The notes below the pieces were generated by a model that saw only the letters and a list, made by a program, of their open reading frames with translations, ran no database searches and was not told the origin of the DNA. Made by a program: the position numbers and the translations under genes. Positions 797 through 11,796 of a stretch of DNA of 22,593 nucleotides are shown here, in pieces. The DNA comes from a virus. Numbering within the stretch: position 1 is the first letter of the stretch; the number at the start of each line of letters is the position of its first letter. Location of the stretch: the IMG/VR virus record IMGVR_UViG_3300020438_000303, positions 1 to 22,593 of that record; one strand, given 5' to 3'.

Positions 797-1864
797 TTAG
801 AATTTCCATCTAACTGAACCAACAACTTGCTCAGTTTCTGCATAGTCAACACCTGTGAAAGTTGACGTACCTGCTTTGTCGTGGAAGTAAAGTCCTACTT
901 CTAAGCCGTCCTGTTTGTCAGCACGTTTAGAAGGATCACGGTTTGCTACTACGTTGTAAACAACACCATAGTAATTACCATCATATCCTAAGTCATCATT
1001 TTCAGTTCTATGTGCTGTAACATAAACTGACTCATTTACAAAATACATTGCACCTATGTCAATTCTGTTATCACTTGCAAGACCTGTGTCTTTGTCGTCC
1101 CACACTTCAGCACCCCAAGTCATTGGAACACCAAATCTAAATAGTGATCCGCCAATGGAGTAACCTTCTTGACGTGTATCTGTTGTGTAACTTGCACTAC
1201 CATCTGCTTTTGTATCGATCATCATATATGACACATCAGCATAGCCCATTAGGCTCACTGTTGCACTTGCATATGTCGATTGCTCGGCTGCATCATAACC
1301 TAGTACAAATCCATATGGCTGTTCTTTCTTAAGCCTATATGTATCAAAGTCAAACTCTGAATCACGTTCAAAGCCACCAAAGGTAATAACTGTTTTAGGG
1401 TTATGGTCTAATCTATTACTTGATTCAGTAATAATGATCGGAGCGCCAATTTTTGAAGTTTTGGCAAAACCTAAACGCTGTGCGTCAGTTTCACCTAGGT
1501 AGATTGTTGCGAAGTCATTTCCAAGTCCGATTTGTTTTTCAACCATCGTATTGTCTTTTGTAGCGTCTAATGAGTAGTCACTATCGTAAGTCATAGTTGC
1601 TCCAGCATAATCGATATTCAAACCGTTATCTGGTAACTCAACATCAAAACCTATTTGTAATTCGGATCGAGCTTCCCAGCCAGAGTCGAACTGCTTGTCA
1701 TCGTAGCGGCCTTCAATCTCACCCGAGATAAACATACCGTGCGGTAAATCAACACCACTACTTTCAAGATCTGAAACTCGTTGTTCCAGTGTCTTGTCCT
1801 CAGCCAATACTTGCGTGGTCGCTAAACCAACAAGAAAGGCTAAACTAAAGATTAGTTTTTTCAT
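797..1864 (-). CDS. Outer-membrane porin-like beta-barrel protein
   Basis: The 355-residue product has a classical Sec signal peptide (MKKLIFSLAFLVGLATTQVLA, cleavage predicted before EDKT). A short heptad-like segment (LEQRVSDLES) follows, and then a long run of alternating polar and aromatic beta-strands. The chain ends in W-K-F; a terminal aromatic residue is the usual BamA recognition signal for outer-membrane barrels. The fold and length match general Gram-negative porins. Some phages encode porins that replace or mask the host receptor, as lambdoid phage PA-2 does with Lc; that role here is inference. The gene stands alone between a terminator at 754-780 and a leader rich in inverted repeats (1884-1951). 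An alternative is horizontally acquired host DNA with a nutrient-uptake role. Confidence 0.8.
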   Translation of the reverse strand: MKKLIFSLAFLVGLATTQVLAEDKTLEQRVSDLESSGVDLPHGMFISGEIEGRYDDKQFDSGWEARSELQIGFDVELPDNGLNIDYAGATMTYDSDYSLDATKDNTMVEKQIGLGNDFATIYLGETDAQRLGFAKTSKIGAPIIITESSNRLDHNPKTVITFGGFERDSEFDFDTYRLKKEQPYGFVLGYDAAEQSTYASATVSLMGYADVSYMMIDTKADGSASYTTDTRQEGYSIGGSLFRFGVPMTWGAEVWDDKDTGLASDNRIDIGAMYFVNESVYVTAHRTENDDLGYDGNYYGVVYNVVANRDPSKRADKQDGLEVGLYFHDKAGTSTFTGVDYAETEQVVGSVRWKF

Positions 1865-1883
1865 TTTGCTTCTGTTTCCTATA

Positions 1884-1951
1884 TTTTATTGCAATAAAAG
1901 CGATCCATAATATTATGGTCGCTTCGTATTAGTTATGCACTCTTCGAGTGC
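1884..1951 (-). promoter_or_regulatory. Leader of the porin gene with three dyad elements
   Basis: Three inverted repeats lie within 87 bases upstream of the porin start. The first is a perfect 16-bp palindrome (TTTTATTGCAATAAAA, 1884-1899). The second is a 13-bp dyad with one bulged base (1898-1924, core CCATAATATTATGG). The third is a 6-bp hairpin with a 3-base loop (GCACTC/GAGTGC, 1937-1951). They could be operators or RNA hairpins controlling message stability. I could not identify a convincing -35/-10 pair here. Confidence 0.5.
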
Positions 1952-1970
1952 AGTAATAGCAGTTGTGAAT

Positions 1971-1997
1971 AAAAAAGGCACCCGAAGGTGCCTTTTT
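1971..1997 (-). terminator. Bidirectional intrinsic terminator after the yhhQ-like gene
   Basis: GGCACC (1977-1982), CGAA loop, GGTGCC (1987-1992), flanked by six A residues on the left and five T residues on the right. On the minus strand the loop reads TTCG, a stabilising tetraloop, and is followed by six T residues. It lies 20 bases beyond the stop codon of the transporter gene. Confidence 0.88.
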
Positions 1998-2016
1998 GGA
2001 GTGTTATGTTCTTAAT

Positions 2017-2664
2017 TTACTTTGTAGTAACTCTTTTTTGTAGATACTTCAGTAATACACCGTATGCTGGCAGGAATACTACCAATCCTACGACAATCTT
2101 AGTCAGTGTGTTGTTCTGTGCAACAATGTGCCAGTTAGCACCAATCCAAGATAGTTTACCTTCTGCATCCAACGATCCTGCAAACGCCACATAAAAGAAT
2201 GAGTATGTGTCAATTACATTTGCAACAATAGTTGAAAGTGCTGGTGCCGCCCACCAAGCATTTGAACGTTCTCTAATTGCTTGGAATACATATACGTCAA
2301 GCATTGTACCAATTGCGTATGCAGTACCTGATGCTAAACCTACTCTGTATGCGTGTTCGTCACCTAGTGCTAATAGCACAAGTACCGACGCAATGATAGC
2401 CGGAATAATAGCAAGTGCTACAACAGCCCGACCTGCTTCTTTACCAACCATCCTTACTGTTAAGTCAGTTGCTACTACAACGATCGGAAACGTAAACGCT
2501 GCCGCCGCTAATGGAAATGATCCAAACAAGGGCAGTTCTGCACCTGGGAATAAATCAAACCTGATAGTTACTAGATAGTTTGACACAGCAATAACAAGCG
2601 TGTGTAAAATAACTAGATTTCTAACTAGCGCCTTATCGACACCATTTAGTAATGTTTTGAACAT
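2017..2664 (-). CDS. yhhQ: YhhQ/VUT-family queuosine-precursor transporter
   Basis: The 215-residue protein has about six hydrophobic membrane segments. Features typical of the VUT family (YhhQ) include FPLAAAAFTFPIVVVATDL in the first half, with the buried aspartate, and ANVIDTYSFFYVAFAG in the second. YhhQ imports 7-deazaguanine precursors (preQ0/preQ1) used for tRNA queuosine; in some phages related 7-deazaguanines modify DNA to evade restriction. No Que biosynthesis or tRNA/DNA transglycosylase gene is visible in this window, so which use applies is unknown. A strong AAGGAG site precedes the ATG by a few bases. The gene follows the peroxiredoxin by 42 bases with no separate promoter seen, so the two are probably cotranscribed and end at the hairpin at 1971-1997. 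Confidence 0.85.
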   Translation of the reverse strand: MFKTLLNGVDKALVRNLVILHTLVIAVSNYLVTIRFDLFPGAELPLFGSFPLAAAAFTFPIVVVATDLTVRMVGKEAGRAVVALAIIPAIIASVLVLLALGDEHAYRVGLASGTAYAIGTMLDVYVFQAIRERSNAWWAAPALSTIVANVIDTYSFFYVAFAGSLDAEGKLSWIGANWHIVAQNNTLTKIVVGLVVFLPAYGVLLKYLQKRVTTK

Positions 2665-2706
2665 ATGTTCTCCTTTTTGTTTTTGTTACTCTGCCCTATC
2701 ATTAAT

Positions 2707-3243
2707 TTAGGCAGTTAAGTAGTCCATTATATTTTCTGGTGATGTTTCGCCATATGGATCGTCATTATCTTTTGACGCTTCTGGTTCAACGAACATCTTT
2801 TCAACCTTACTGTCGTTTATCACAACAGCAAAACGTCTCGAACGCATACCAAATCCCTTATGTTTAAAATCAATTAGCATACCTAATGATTCTGCTAATT
2901 CACCATTACCATCTGGAATAACTTTTACGTTCTTAATGCCAAGGTGTTGCGCCCAAGCATTCATTACAAAACTATCATTAACACTTGATACATAGATTTC
3001 ATCTACGCCTAAGTCATTAGTAATAGTATTGTAGTTTTCTTCAAAGCCTGGAAGTTGGTAAGTTGAACAGGTTGGTGTAAATGCTCCAGGTAAAGAGAAT
3101 ACAACAACTCTCTTACCTGCAAATAAATCGTCAGTAGTTTTACCTACAAACTCTCCACCGATCGGACAACCACCATCTTCTGGTTCTTCGTCGCCTACTC
3201 TACACTGAAAGGTAATAGTAGGAATTCTGTTTTCTTCTGTCAT
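2707..3243 (-). CDS. Peroxiredoxin, Prx5-like
   Basis: The 178-residue protein has the thioredoxin-fold peroxiredoxin core with the Prx5 active-site segment PGAFTPTCS, giving peroxidatic cysteine C59 with its T56 and P52 environment, and the downstream segment GMRSRRFAVVI that supplies the active-site arginine. It would reduce hydrogen peroxide or organic peroxides in the cytoplasm. Some bacterial Prx5 proteins carry a fused glutaredoxin domain; this one does not, although a separate glutaredoxin gene lies at 7692-7943. Cysteines C14 and C26 near the N-terminus could act as resolving residues, which is untested. It has a perfect-consensus sigma70 promoter and is followed by the transporter gene. 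Confidence 0.9.
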   Translation of the reverse strand: MTEENRIPTITFQCRVGDEEPEDGGCPIGGEFVGKTTDDLFAGKRVVVFSLPGAFTPTCSTYQLPGFEENYNTITNDLGVDEIYVSSVNDSFVMNAWAQHLGIKNVKVIPDGNGELAESLGMLIDFKHKGFGMRSRRFAVVINDSKVEKMFVEPEASKDNDDPYGETSPENIMDYLTA

Positions 3244-3329: not shown

Positions 3330-3755
3330 TTATTTTTGAAAGCGTACAGTGTAAGATTGGTTGTTGTGGATAAAACTAACTGTACTGTGACTATAAACTT
3401 CTTGGTAAGACTCGTTAAAACGTTGTTCTCTGCGGCATTGTGTCTCTACACGACTCTTTGCTTTGGAGTTATTGTGTCCAATAATGCCTCCAAGTAGGGC
3501 ACCAACTGCACCACCATTGTCTACATTTTTGGTAACATTATTTCCAATTACGCCGCCGATAATTGCTCCTGCTAGTGCATCACCAGTCCTATCGCCTCCG
3601 ACTGTTACGTCTTGGCAAACTTCTACATAGTAAGGTGTCTTGTTTATCACAGTCTTGTAATGATCTTTAATTACTTCTGCGTGTGCTGCACCTGATAAGA
3701 AACCTACGCCAATACAGATGGCAATGACGTGGAAATATAATTCTTTAAACTGCAT
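3330..3755 (-). CDS. Secreted glycine-zipper (17 kDa antigen-like) envelope protein
   Basis: The 141-residue product begins with a probable signal peptide ending in GAAHA (cleavage near residue 26). A glycine-zipper segment follows at about residues 59-93 (GDALAGAIIGGVIGNNV and GGAVGALLGGIIG), the pattern of the Gly-zipper_2/Rick_17kDa family of outer-membrane-associated proteins. The C-terminal part is polar and ends with a short beta-rich region. Cysteines at about 48 and 107 could form a disulfide. No lipobox cysteine is seen at the cleavage site, so it is probably soluble or membrane-inserted rather than a lipoprotein. It lies just after the tmRNA, with an AAGGGAT ribosome site, and is probably transcribed with it. 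Function unknown; the porin nearby suggests an envelope role. Confidence 0.7.
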   Translation of the reverse strand: MQFKELYFHVIAICIGVGFLSGAAHAEVIKDHYKTVINKTPYYVEVCQDVTVGGDRTGDALAGAIIGGVIGNNVTKNVDNGGAVGALLGGIIGHNNSKAKSRVETQCRREQRFNESYQEVYSHSTVSFIHNNQSYTVRFQK

Positions 3756-3789: not shown

Positions 3790-4069
3790 TAAGTGCAACT
3801 TTTCTGTTGCCAGGTAAGTTGCCAACCCCGTCACCTAGTTAGACTAGGCAGCAAGAGCAAAGTTTTCGTTTGCGTCTATAGTTTTGTTCGCGATAACGGT
3901 GCTTACATCCCGGTAATCTCGTTCACCTTTAACAAGCCAGTCGATCCTAGTTCGCCCCCATCATAAGCACATTAAATTGTCTGTGTTAATCTTCAATGTG
4001 CTTATGGTGGAGGCGTCGGGTACTGCCCCCGAGTCCTGTTCTTGTGACATATGATGCTGTCATCAATTA
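3790..4069 (-). ncRNA. ssrA: Circularly permuted (alphaproteobacterial-type) tmRNA
   Basis: Read on the minus strand, the 3' acceptor part comes first: a T-arm (TCGGG, loop GGCAGTA, CCCGA at 4032-4016), then CGCCTCC plus A and an encoded CCA ending at 4005. A 45-base intervening segment (4004-3960) forms a 10-bp hairpin (TAAGCACATT/AATGTGCTTA). The 5' part then begins at 3959 with GGGGGCG, which pairs with CGCCTCC over 7 bp and includes the G3-U70 pair (3957 with 4011) recognised by alanyl-tRNA synthetase. The tag frame is 3873-3844, encoding ANENFALAA and a UAG stop; the stop lies in a stem (CCTAG/CTAGG), as in other tmRNAs. CTTGT in the 5' part can pair with ACAAG upstream of the T-arm as helix 2. 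This order matches two-piece tmRNAs. Outer ends are approximate; further pairing at 3785-3840 probably forms a pseudoknot. Confidence 0.93.
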
Positions 4070-4074
4070 CACTA

Positions 4075-4105
4075 TATTTATAACACCTTTTTAAGTGCTT
4101 GTCAA
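4075..4105 (-). promoter_or_regulatory. Consensus sigma70 promoter overlapping a late-type TATAAATA box, for tmRNA
   Basis: On the minus strand TTGACA (4105-4100) is followed after 17 bases by TATAAA (4082-4077). The same bases form the octamer TATAAATA (4082-4075), identical to the T4 late promoter. Transcription would start near 4069, just ahead of the tmRNA acceptor piece. Either or both polymerase forms could use it. Confidence 0.85.
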
Positions 4106-4119
4106 TCTTTTTTTAAGGA

Positions 4120-4210
4120 TGGTAGCAGTGGCCGGATTCGAACCGACATCAGCCAATTATCTGTTGCTACGGAGTATAAACCCGCTGTTTTACCATTAAA
4201 CTACACTGCC
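4120..4210 (-). tRNA. tRNA with long variable arm; predicted anticodon UAU, identity uncertain
   Basis: On the minus strand a 91-base cloverleaf folds as follows: acceptor GGCAGTG/CACTGCT (the first pair is G-U) with an encoded ACCA end; D-arm GTTT/AAAC with an AATGGTA loop; anticodon stem GCGGG/TCCGT around loop TTTATAC; a 21-base variable region; and T-arm GTCGG, TTCGAAT, CCGGC. The loop puts UAU at 34-36, which would read the isoleucine codon AUA. A variable region this long normally occurs only in Leu, Ser and bacterial Tyr tRNAs, so identity is doubtful. The D-arm resembles tRNA-Gly. It lies 8 bases after the 58-residue gene and upstream of the tmRNA promoter. Confidence 0.8.
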
Positions 4211-8086: not shown

Positions 8087-8254
8087 TTAACCAGAATAAA
8101 TTACTGAGCCTTTTTTATCAGTAACTCTTACCATAATAACATTTTGTCTTTTCTTTCCTAAAGCAGCAGAGATAGCCTGTGCTTCTGAACCGTATGATCC
8201 AATTGTTACCCAAGATTCGTATGGTGAATGTTTTTTAAATTGAGCTTTGAACAT
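8087..8254 (-). CDS. Small hypothetical protein, 55 residues, after nrdB
   Basis: The frame (starts MFKAQFKKHSPYESWVTIGS, ends KKGSVIYSG) begins 12 bases after the nrdB stop. It has a pattern of short strands and one helix (SEAQAISAALGKKRQNVIMV), like a small alpha/beta protein. The ribosome site is weak (TAAG). Its tight placement in the nrd operon and codon use like its neighbours support it. No motif was recognised. Confidence 0.6.
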   Translation of the reverse strand: MFKAQFKKHSPYESWVTIGSYGSEAQAISAALGKKRQNVIMVRVTDKKGSVIYSG

Positions 8255-8266
8255 ACTAATACTTAT

Positions 8267-9397
8267 CTAAAGTTCGAAACCTTTGAAGGTATCTTTCTCA
8301 ACATCTTGTTTAACACCCCCAACGATATAACTTTCTACTTCTGTTTCCTGCGGAGCAACCTGTAAGCCTGAACTAGATAGCCAGTGCTGTGTCCACGGTA
8401 AAGGATTAGTGTTTAATGGACGATCGTAGATTGTTTTAAGTCCTAGTGCTTTTAATCTCTTATTAGCAATGAACTCTACATATGCATGTAGTAGATTTGC
8501 ATTAAGTCCTACAATTGATCCTTTCGCAAAAAGATAATCTGCCCAACGCTTTTCTTCTTCAACACACTCACGCCACATTTCATAAACTTCTTCTTCACAC
8601 TCTTTAGCAATCTTAATAAAATCTGGATCATCATCACCTTTCATCCAATGCTTTAAGATGTGTGTAGACAAATTCAAATGTGTTGCTTCATCACGTGCAA
8701 TCAACGAAATAATCTTTGCAGATCCTTCCATTTTCTTTAGCTCACCAAATGCAAACGTACAAGCAAATGATACATAGAAACGTAAACCTTCTAAAATGTT
8801 TACAGTCATCATTGCTTTGTATAATTGCTTCTTGACTTCATACATATCGCCTTTCTTATGATGGAACCAATTGTCTGCAATTTCATTAAACTTGTCGTAT
8901 TCTTTAGTAACACTTTCTGCTCTGGCAAGAATTTCTTTGTCTTCTAAGATAGTATCAAATACTTCGCTAGGATTTGCATAAACATTTTTTACAATGTGTG
9001 TATATGAACGACTGTGAATTGTTTCTTGAAAGTCCCAAGCCACAATACAACTTTCTAATTCAGGATTAGAACAGTATGGTAGGAAAGCAAGACAAGGTCC
9101 ACGTCCCTGTACACTATCTAATAGTGTTTGATATTTTAAGTTACTTGTAAAAATATGTTTTTCTTCTTCACGAAAGTCTTGATAGTCTGCTCTGTCTTTC
9201 TGTAAAGAAACTTCTTCAGGTCTCCAAAAGTAACCTAACATAGTTTGATTAAGTTTGTCATACTCCGGATAACGAAATACGTCATAACGTTGTGTGTTAC
9301 CGTCTTCTCCAAAGAACATAAATTCTTTAGTAAAGTCTACTTTCTTTTTGTTGAATACTGTTTTAGCCAATGTCTGTCTCTCTCTCTTTTTCGTCAT
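8267..9397 (-). CDS. nrdB: Ribonucleotide reductase class Ia small subunit
   Basis: The 376-residue protein aligns by eye with E. coli NrdB along its length. Key elements are present: W in FFWRPEEV (radical transfer), D in LLDSVQGR, E and H in ETIHSRSYTH with the radical tyrosine, E in LEGLRFYVSF, and E and H in IARDEATHL. The C-terminal tail carries the conserved tyrosine (VESYIVGG) and ends in F-E-L for docking to NrdA. It makes the diferric-tyrosyl radical needed for reduction of ribonucleoside diphosphates. The start lies 8 bases after the nrdA stop. Confidence 0.97.
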   Translation of the reverse strand: MTKKRERQTLAKTVFNKKKVDFTKEFMFFGEDGNTQRYDVFRYPEYDKLNQTMLGYFWRPEEVSLQKDRADYQDFREEEKHIFTSNLKYQTLLDSVQGRGPCLAFLPYCSNPELESCIVAWDFQETIHSRSYTHIVKNVYANPSEVFDTILEDKEILARAESVTKEYDKFNEIADNWFHHKKGDMYEVKKQLYKAMMTVNILEGLRFYVSFACTFAFGELKKMEGSAKIISLIARDEATHLNLSTHILKHWMKGDDDPDFIKIAKECEEEVYEMWRECVEEEKRWADYLFAKGSIVGLNANLLHAYVEFIANKRLKALGLKTIYDRPLNTNPLPWTQHWLSSSGLQVAPQETEVESYIVGGVKQDVEKDTFKGFEL

Positions 9398-9405
9398 ACG
9401 TTCTA

Positions 9406-11796
9406 TTATATATTACATGCTTCACATTCTTCGCCATCATCAATATCCACTGTGATAGTTTCTTTACCATTCACATGTCCATTAACGCCATTATGGCCAT
9501 TTATAGTGCCGTTCATTGTAGCACCATTAATTTGATTGTCAACAACAGTTTCTTCCAATCCTGCTGGTTGAACATTTTCGTCATCACCTTTGAAGTCATA
9601 GGTGTTTTGATAGTAACTAGTTTTCCAACCCATCTTGTAAGTTGTTAACATGTCTTTCATCATAACACTTAGAGGTACTTCATTGTTCTCAAAGTGTGTT
9701 GGATTATAACTCCAATTACCGCTAATTGCTTGATCGTAAAACTTCTGCATAGCAGCAACGATATTTATATAACCTTCATTACTGGGCATATCCCAAAGCA
9801 ATGTATAAAAATTCTTTAGTTGACCAAACTGCGGAACAACCTGTTTAAGAGGCCCTTTCTTTGACTTCTTAATGGACAAGAAAGCTCTTGGGGGCTCAAT
9901 ACCGTTTGTTGCATTTGACACAACGGAACTGCTTTCCGATGGCATCTGTGCGGACAATGTTGAGTGCCGTAACCCGTATTGCTTGATGTCCTTGCGTAGA
10001 GCAGACCAATCATACTGTAACTTCTCCTTAATAACATTATCGACATCTTTCTTATATGTGTCAACAGGTAAAATACCATCCGCATATTTAGTACGACCGA
10101 ATCCTTCACACGCACCACGTTCTTGAGCAAGATCATTACTTGCAACAAGTAGATAGTATTGGAATGCTTCTGAAAGTTTGTGTACTAGTTTCCATGCCTC
10201 TGGATTATCATACTTAACTTTATGCTTTGCAAGATAGTGTGCAAGGCCAATGTAACCAATACCAAGCGAACGTCTTGATTTAGTGCTTAGTTCAGCAGCC
10301 TTAACAGGATAACCTTGATAGTCAATAATTTCTTCTAATGCTCTTACTGCAAGATCACATAAGTTTTCTAATTCTTCTAGTTTGTTAATTAAACCTACGT
10401 TAATAGCAGAAAGAATACAAAGAGCAATTTCGCCTTCTTCATCATCAATGTGTTGAATAGGCTTAGTTGGTAATGTAATTTCTTGACACAAGTTGCTCAT
10501 AAAGATTGGATCTTTAAATGAACTGTGTGAGTTACAATGATCAACATTCATAATATAGATACGTCCTGTTTCAGCACGTTCTTTTAATAAGTCACCGAAA
10601 AGATCTCTTGCTTTAATCTTCTTCTTTCTAAGAGATGTTTTTCTTTCTGCTGCTTCATATACTTCTTGAAACTTATCGTTGTCACCTGAGTAAAATGCAT
10701 CATACACTTCTGGGACATCGTGTGGCGAGAAAAGAGTTATGTCTTTATCAGCCAACAGCCTTTCGTAAAATACTTTATTAATTTGAATTGAATAATCTAA
10801 TTTACGTACACGATTGTCTTCAGTACCTTTGTTATTTTTAAGTACAAGAATATCTTCAATCTCATAATGCCAAATAGGAAAGTGTGTAGTTGCACTACCA
10901 CCACGTACACCATTTTGTGTACAACTTCTTACTGTGCTTTCGTAAACTTTTAAGAATGGGACAACGCCTGTATGGGCTACTTCTCCACCTCGTATTTTTG
11001 AATTGATTGCTCTTGTTCTTCCTGAGTTAATCCCAATTCCTGCCCTTTGAGCAATGTAGTAACCGATTGCGCTATTAGAGCTAAAGATACTAGGAAGAGT
11101 ATCATCCACATCAACAAGAACACAACTGGCAAACTGACGAATAGGAGTACGCACTCCTGCCATGACAGGTGTTGGTATGTTGATTTTAAAAAGACTGGTC
11201 GCATCGTAATATTTTTTCACGTATGATAAACGTGTCTCCTTAGGATATTCAGCAAATAGTGTTGCAGCAATCATCATATACATATGCTGTGGCGTTTCAA
11301 AAATGTCGCCGTTACTTCTATCCTGACACAAGTACTTATCTACAACTTGACGTAATCCAGCGTATGTAAATTCTTCGTTACGATCATGTTTGATGTATGT
11401 GTTTAATTTTTTTAGTTCAGTGTCTGTATATTTTTCTTTAATATTAGAATCGTATACACCACGCTTAATATTCATATCGATAATTTGTGTTAACGACTGG
11501 TGTTCGTATCTGCCGTAAACTTTTTTATGTAAAGTATACAGTAATAATCTTGCTGCTGCATATTGATAGTTAGGTGCTTCTAATGATATAAGATCATTAG
11601 CACTTTTTACTAGTATATCTTGAATTTCGTCTGTTGTCATGCCGTCATAAAATTGTAAATCAGCATTCATCTCTATTTGACTTGCGCTTACACCGGAAAG
11701 ACCATTACAAGCCTCATCAACTACAAAGTGCATCTTGTCTAAATTTAGTATTTCCTTGGAGCCGGAACGCTTCGTGATGTAAATCTCTTTTGTCAT
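9406..11796 (-). CDS. nrdA: Ribonucleotide reductase class Ia large subunit
   Basis: The 796-residue protein has an N-terminal ATP-cone (about 1-95). The catalytic barrel includes the redox cysteine in FASCVLVD, the N-x-C-x-E triad in SNLCQEITLPTKP, the partner cysteine in ALCILSAINVG, and the radical-relay tyrosine pair in TSYYQNTYD. The C-terminal swivel ends DGEECEACNI: cysteines C791 and C794 are spaced C-x2-C rather than the C-x4-C of E. coli. Before it lies an unusual Asn/Gly/His-rich linker (about 750-778). With NrdB and glutaredoxin it converts ribonucleotides to deoxyribonucleotides for phage DNA synthesis. A GATAAATAC late-type box lies about 40 bases upstream. Confidence 0.97.
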   Translation of the reverse strand: MTKEIYITKRSGSKEILNLDKMHFVVDEACNGLSGVSASQIEMNADLQFYDGMTTDEIQDILVKSANDLISLEAPNYQYAAARLLLYTLHKKVYGRYEHQSLTQIIDMNIKRGVYDSNIKEKYTDTELKKLNTYIKHDRNEEFTYAGLRQVVDKYLCQDRSNGDIFETPQHMYMMIAATLFAEYPKETRLSYVKKYYDATSLFKINIPTPVMAGVRTPIRQFASCVLVDVDDTLPSIFSSNSAIGYYIAQRAGIGINSGRTRAINSKIRGGEVAHTGVVPFLKVYESTVRSCTQNGVRGGSATTHFPIWHYEIEDILVLKNNKGTEDNRVRKLDYSIQINKVFYERLLADKDITLFSPHDVPEVYDAFYSGDNDKFQEVYEAAERKTSLRKKKIKARDLFGDLLKERAETGRIYIMNVDHCNSHSSFKDPIFMSNLCQEITLPTKPIQHIDDEEGEIALCILSAINVGLINKLEELENLCDLAVRALEEIIDYQGYPVKAAELSTKSRRSLGIGYIGLAHYLAKHKVKYDNPEAWKLVHKLSEAFQYYLLVASNDLAQERGACEGFGRTKYADGILPVDTYKKDVDNVIKEKLQYDWSALRKDIKQYGLRHSTLSAQMPSESSSVVSNATNGIEPPRAFLSIKKSKKGPLKQVVPQFGQLKNFYTLLWDMPSNEGYINIVAAMQKFYDQAISGNWSYNPTHFENNEVPLSVMMKDMLTTYKMGWKTSYYQNTYDFKGDDENVQPAGLEETVVDNQINGATMNGTINGHNGVNGHVNGKETITVDIDDGEECEACNI

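Follow-up and report, generated by a model that had tools for sequence, protein, structure and literature searches.

What is a circularly permuted tmRNA gene of alphaproteobacterial type doing in a phage genome, and what is the nature of the gap between its two pieces? The question is raised by the window, by which we mean the whole stretch of DNA analysed here, a 22,593-base IMG/VR virus record from a T4-like marine phage. A first-pass annotation, made from the letters alone, had recognized such a gene, had proposed that the host lineage could be read from it, and had left open whether permuted phage tmRNAs were already described.

Results

Anatomy of the tmRNA gene

The window carries a complete, circularly permuted tmRNA gene of alphaproteobacterial type on the minus strand (4120-3792), as identified with ARAGORN and Rfam. 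ARAGORN called one permuted tmRNA (tmRNA*) with the tag ANENFALAA, together with one tRNA. The Rfam model alpha_tmRNA (RF01849) matched the same interval with a score of 150.3 bits (cut-off 50; E = 9e-42), and tmRNA_permuted (RF04321) matched 4070-3844 (-) with 118.6 bits (cut-off 47). Chance is excluded, because of the covariance-model E-values and because relatives carry the same gene at the same locus.

The anatomy given in the first-pass annotation holds on the minus strand (Table 1). The acceptor piece, whose CCA ends at 4005, lies upstream of the coding piece, whose 5' G is at 3959, and the 45-base spacer between them contains a hairpin of 10 bp that is Watson-Crick throughout. The acceptor strands GGGGGCG and CGCCUCC pair over 7 bp and include the G3-U70 alanine identity pair; this pair, the ANENFALAA frame and the stop in a stem, all claimed earlier, were each confirmed by direct reading, and the frame by ARAGORN as well. 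The tag frame has an alanine resume codon, a hydrophobic ALAA end and a stop codon within a helix. In the computed fold, the spacer and the acceptor strands form a single long hairpin of -34.8 kcal/mol. The window spacer holds no ORF of note and is non-coding, and Rfam searches with relaxed E-value limits revealed neither a riboswitch nor an intron nor a ribozyme there. A DNA similarity search of phage records with the tmRNA region returned matches to the neighbouring tRNA only.

Table 1. Positions of the tmRNA gene, its parts and its neighbours in the window.
Feature	Position	Strand	Basis
Acceptor piece (T arm, acceptor 3' strand CGCCUCC, A, CCA)	4005..4070	-	RF04321 and RF01849 alignments; 5' boundary approximate
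CCA end of acceptor piece	4007-4005	-	Encoded; exact position
Intervening spacer, 45 nt, TAAGCACATT...AATGTGCTTATGAT	3960..4004	-	Without ORF; exact position
Spacer stem, 5' arm	3995..4004	-	Fold; covariation over 108 unique spacers
Spacer stem, 3' arm	3964..3973	-	Fold; covariation over 108 unique spacers
Coding (mRNA-like) piece: acceptor 5' strand GGGGGCG, tag frame, 3' domain	3792..3959	-	RF01849 alignment; 3' end approximate
Tag frame ANENFALAA, stop TAG, resume codon GCA	3844..3873	-	ARAGORN and exact position
Hairpin CCTAG/CTAGG enclosing the tag stop codon	3834..3848	-	Seen directly
Promoter-like site TTGACA-17-TATAAA, just upstream of acceptor piece	4077..4105	-	Exact position; relaxed motif recurs in relatives
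Glycine-zipper protein gene, directly downstream of tmRNA	3330..3755	-	Locus marker in relatives
tRNA-Ile(UAU), CCA encoded, long variable region	4120..4210	-	ARAGORN and Rfam

The second box of the promoter-like site can also be read as TATAAATA, the T4-late consensus, so that early and late timing are both possible. A simple scan misses this site because it demands T as the last base of the second box. A relaxed motif, defined as TTGA[C/T]N followed after 15-19 nt by one of six second-box variants, was found at about the same upstream distance in 135 of 187 phage tmRNAs, compared with 24 of 1275 random windows.

The spacer as an exchangeable cassette

Phage tmRNAs at 404 loci yielded 267 parsed permuted genes, with spacers of 9 to 499 nt. 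tmRNAs whose tags differ and whose bodies have diverged can share near-identical spacers. The window spacer is 100% identical in two other contigs (L353 and L383), where the flanks are 65-87% identical, and a 266-nt spacer shared by L029 and L352 is 99% identical, as against 71% for the acceptor piece, 57% for the coding piece and 53% for the 3' part. Chimeric assembly could mimic single swaps of this kind, and nearly all of the relatives are metagenomic contigs, but it could not account for isolates or for repeated independent cases.

Over 108 unique spacers, pairing with the spacer's own arm involves 9.58 of the first 10 positions, compared with 7.11 when arms are swapped (1000 trials, maximum 7.41), and several pair types are found at each position. 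This covariation shows selection on the closing stem at the RNA level, and across phages the tmRNA spacer is, on sequence comparison, an exchangeable cassette slot and not inert. The first-pass annotation, right about the permuted alpha-type phage tmRNA, had missed this property of the spacer. Recurrent non-coding spacer families of ~60-106 nt, common to divergent tmRNAs, were also observed (L265, L290, L215, L396 and L053; L291, L339, L360, L375 and L376).

Small protein genes in the spacers of relatives

Perhaps the window simply holds an ordinary phage permuted tmRNA whose spacer is a neutral insertion site for random sequence, any ORFs being passengers or products of chance. The many spacers without an ORF, the window's included, and the wide range of spacer lengths would suit this idea, which we nevertheless regard as unlikely, given that the ORF counts lie far above their controls. 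Among the 61 unique spacers that reach 95 nt, 39 have an ORF covering 70% or more of their length, 28 of these with a Shine-Dalgarno sequence (SD), as compared with 4 on the antisense strand and 4.8 in dinucleotide shuffles (0.9 with an SD). Also against a neutral site, the ORFs are fitted to the arms at both ends: they start mostly shortly after the CCA, and their stops cluster at -1, -7, -12 and -15 before the 5' G, or at +13 inside the coding piece. The tmRNAs concerned remain recognizable, with RF04321 above its cut-off in 24 of 24 records tested with cmsearch, many of which have a spacer ORF.

Selection on one spacer gene family, MEVIWH (MEVIWHILLTVC...), weighs further against neutrality. 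In divergent pairs (dS ~0.9-1.4) its dN/dS is ~0.13-0.24 and third positions differ most, a pattern by which the family is under purifying selection. A wider scan recovered 191 relatives; among the best 80, 29 lie within tmRNA spacers, with at least 11 tags, a count from a strict parser that may miss some nested copies. The C-terminus of every one of the 29 is S-M-S-L or S-V-S-L, since TCT TTA TGA is the 3' arm of the stem, and this re-encoding of the C-terminal codons as stem is again not what a neutral site would produce. The other 51 of the best 80 lie between tRNAs, just upstream of a tmRNA or in other gene arrays, and most have a different C-terminal ending.

This distribution bears on a second alternative, namely that the spacers are self-mobile, MITE-like elements that insert into permuted tmRNAs, with the stem arms as terminal inverted repeats. 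Such elements could leave near-identical spacers in divergent tmRNAs and near-perfect inverted repeats at both spacer ends, as observed; the arms, however, differ and covary between spacers as expected of an RNA stem, and outside tmRNAs the MEVIWH gene is without the arm-coded C-terminus in nearly all copies, which together make this explanation distinctly improbable.

An AlphaFold model of a MEVIWH protein (L421 1501-1686) is confident overall, with a pLDDT of 90.8 and a beta-beta-alpha-beta arrangement, the arm-coded C-terminus being of low confidence. Fold searches with the model produced nothing at E <= 0.001; the nearest PDB entry, 8g9s_A, a 70-residue chain from a study of CRISPR-Cas3 inactivation, had an E-value of 0.35 and was rejected as too weak. 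Pfam and PHROGs returned almost nothing for the spacer ORFs, save a DUF2061 match just below the cut-off (L305, 21.9 against 23.1 bits), and tblastn of the L323 and L305 spacer ORFs found no homologue in isolates.

Phage setting and the question of the host

The genes of the window include NrdA, NrdB, glutaredoxin, a PAAR-CHAP protein, a PDDEXK-type exonuclease and a 2OG oxygenase. The Pelagibacter phages Mosig and HTVC008M have NrdA proteins 67-71% identical to that of the window, and the cyanomyophages follow closely. The same tmRNA is present in L121, L273, L259, L293 and L312, several of them syntenic with the window; in independent contigs it adjoins the same glycine-zipper gene, and the order PDDEXK-NrdA-NrdB-glutaredoxin-tmRNA is common to several. 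This conserved phage synteny upholds the earlier reading of the gene as a phage tmRNA, and, since relatives carry it at the same locus, a join to host DNA by misassembly, which the first-pass annotation had allowed for, is unlikely. Indeed, although the alphaproteobacterial type of the tmRNA and its host-like neighbours (peroxiredoxin, VUT transporter, DUF454) might suggest DNA of SAR11 or another alphaproteobacterium, misassembled or recently captured, such an origin is very improbable: independent phage contigs have this tmRNA together with these neighbours, the exact tag was found in none of the alphaproteobacteria of the genome collection, and the cultured phage Mosig has a permuted tmRNA.

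Several features of the locus merit record. The host-like genes of the window, for a peroxiredoxin and a VUT-family transporter, lie at 797-3243 (-), where a 355-residue protein, porin-like in appearance, is without a Pfam or PHROG match. The variable region of the tRNA-Ile(UAU), at ~20 nt, is unusual for tRNA-Ile; a tRNA-Ile(UAU)-like gene stands beside the tmRNA in relatives and aligns with the tRNA-Ile of many Vibrio phages. One relative (L264) has two different permuted tmRNAs, at 8159-8493 and 9090-9481, with the tags ANDNFASEDYALAA and ANENFALAA, flanking the glycine-zipper gene and two tRNAs. SmpB does not figure among the annotations obtained for 20 scanned proteins of the window.

The tag proved a poor guide to the host. 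We searched for ANENFALAA and its stop, allowing all synonymous codons, in 84,980 species genomes and in viral contigs. In the species genomes the exact tag occurs in 12 stretches, all of them one-piece tmRNAs of other phyla, and no alphaproteobacterial genome among those scanned has a match. It occurs in 75 viral contigs, 72 of them parsed as permuted and 3 as one-piece. The ANENFALAA tag thus marks phages and not the host, and the earlier suggestion that the tmRNA reveals the host lineage, which called for comparison with host tags, is rejected; methylophage Melnitz, moreover, has a gammaproteobacterial host and yet an alpha-type tmRNA (PMC9004378). The one-piece tmRNAs with this tag in 3 viral contigs (L261, L270 and L314) are probably convergent. 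The permuted tmRNAs of L115, L117, L326, L486 and L495 were parsed with very long tags of 29-31 residues (ANDNALSNVTFVDFSAPVTAVNEDFALAA, for example).

Discussion

A probable cargo slot within a tmRNA gene

The best overall explanation, and one that we hold to be quite probable from the sequence evidence, is an intact phage permuted tmRNA with a stem-closed, exchangeable spacer that in relatives holds small protein genes. Transcription from the upstream promoter would give one precursor comprising acceptor piece, spacer and coding piece, and host tRNA-processing enzymes would be expected to cut it in two places, the CCA end and the 5' G, leaving a two-piece tmRNA. By analogy with the family, this RNA would be charged with alanine by host AlaRS and, with host SmpB, would rescue stalled ribosomes and add the tag ANENFALAA; ribosome rescue with SmpB and processing enzymes of the host is the natural inference.

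Selection probably keeps the stem because it brings the two acceptor strands together in the precursor and allows correct cutting. The arms can enclose widely differing contents, so that the slot collects non-coding cassettes as well as small protein genes, which most likely pass between phages through homologous recombination at the conserved sequences of acceptor and arms. Since the small genes of relatives run from arm to arm, one precursor could be both mRNA and pre-tmRNA, its spacer ORF being translated perhaps before and perhaps after cutting. In several families the SD lies within the 5' arm, and stem formation would therefore compete with translation. It is tempting to speculate that this competition couples both uses of the transcript.

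It thus seems likely, on balance, that the permuted-tmRNA gap of marine T4-like phages is a dedicated cargo slot, filled by swapped, stem-bounded cassettes, frequently whole small protein genes that bring a ribosome-binding site of their own and whose stop is fitted to the RNase P site, on a transcript that would serve as both mRNA and pre-tmRNA. The window would then represent a non-coding cassette and, its spacer being without an ORF, the cargo reading depends on the relatives.

On its own, the window gene confirms and extends a published kind. If true, the spacer result would represent a new form of gene nesting, in which protein genes lie inside a permuted non-coding RNA gene, share one promoter and are presumably released by tRNA-processing enzymes. 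In the open literature consulted, we found no earlier report of protein genes inside permuted-tmRNA spacers. Such a slot is one possible reason why a phage would retain the permuted form of the gene in preference to a one-piece tmRNA, and the spacer ORFs provide a catalogue of small unannotated phage genes, with Melnitz (on OM43) as a cultured case.

Comparison with known systems

Permuted phage tmRNAs are not unprecedented, which settles the question left by the first-pass annotation and places the window gene by itself within a known kind. A two-piece tmRNA was reported in Melnitz, together with a count of 53 suggested two-piece tmRNAs in phage genomes, of which 50 are marine or aquatic; the proposal was that they help to keep the hijacked machinery going or tag host proteins (Buchholz 2022, PMC9004378). 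Melnitz and Mosig resemble the window in having a broadly similar permuted tmRNA, a T4-like marine phage genome and a promoter-like site just upstream, but they differ in their tags (ANDNYVPVDYALAA in Melnitz and GEDNFALAA in Mosig) and in genomic place, their tmRNA adjoining the late-transcription coactivator. As called by ARAGORN, the Mosig tag (L406 11467-11805) begins with glycine, not alanine.

The 142-nt Melnitz spacer contains GGAG and an ORF (MFKWLSKTRLVVITRDYFRERNRKADAKIPKYLSG...; MZ577097, 46096-46257) that is present in all 4 isolate records, under the SsrA annotation and without a named CDS; by eye, it resembles the spacer ORF of L096. The consulted text of PMC9004378 makes no mention of this ORF. 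Immediately upstream of its tmRNA, Melnitz has an annotated relative of MEVIWH, and the loop of the Mosig spacer recurs in another phage tmRNA (L366).

With the families RF01849 and RF04321 the window gene shares gene order, acceptor, tag and 3' domain, scoring far over the cut-offs, but it differs in its 9-residue tag, not found in scanned alphaproteobacteria, and in its exchangeable spacer. As for inserts, the consulted text of one survey describes intervening sequences with one tRNA gene and one repetitive element, and protein genes are not mentioned there (PMC11915505). According to the same source, some tmRNAs are interrupted by a group I intron, in some cases with homing endonuclease genes; Rfam detected no intron in the window. 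Such tmRNAs are alike in that a tmRNA gene hosts an insert, sometimes with an ORF (PMC11915505), but the intron is a self-splicing insert in the T loop, whereas the insert of the window lies between two pieces and needs no ligation.
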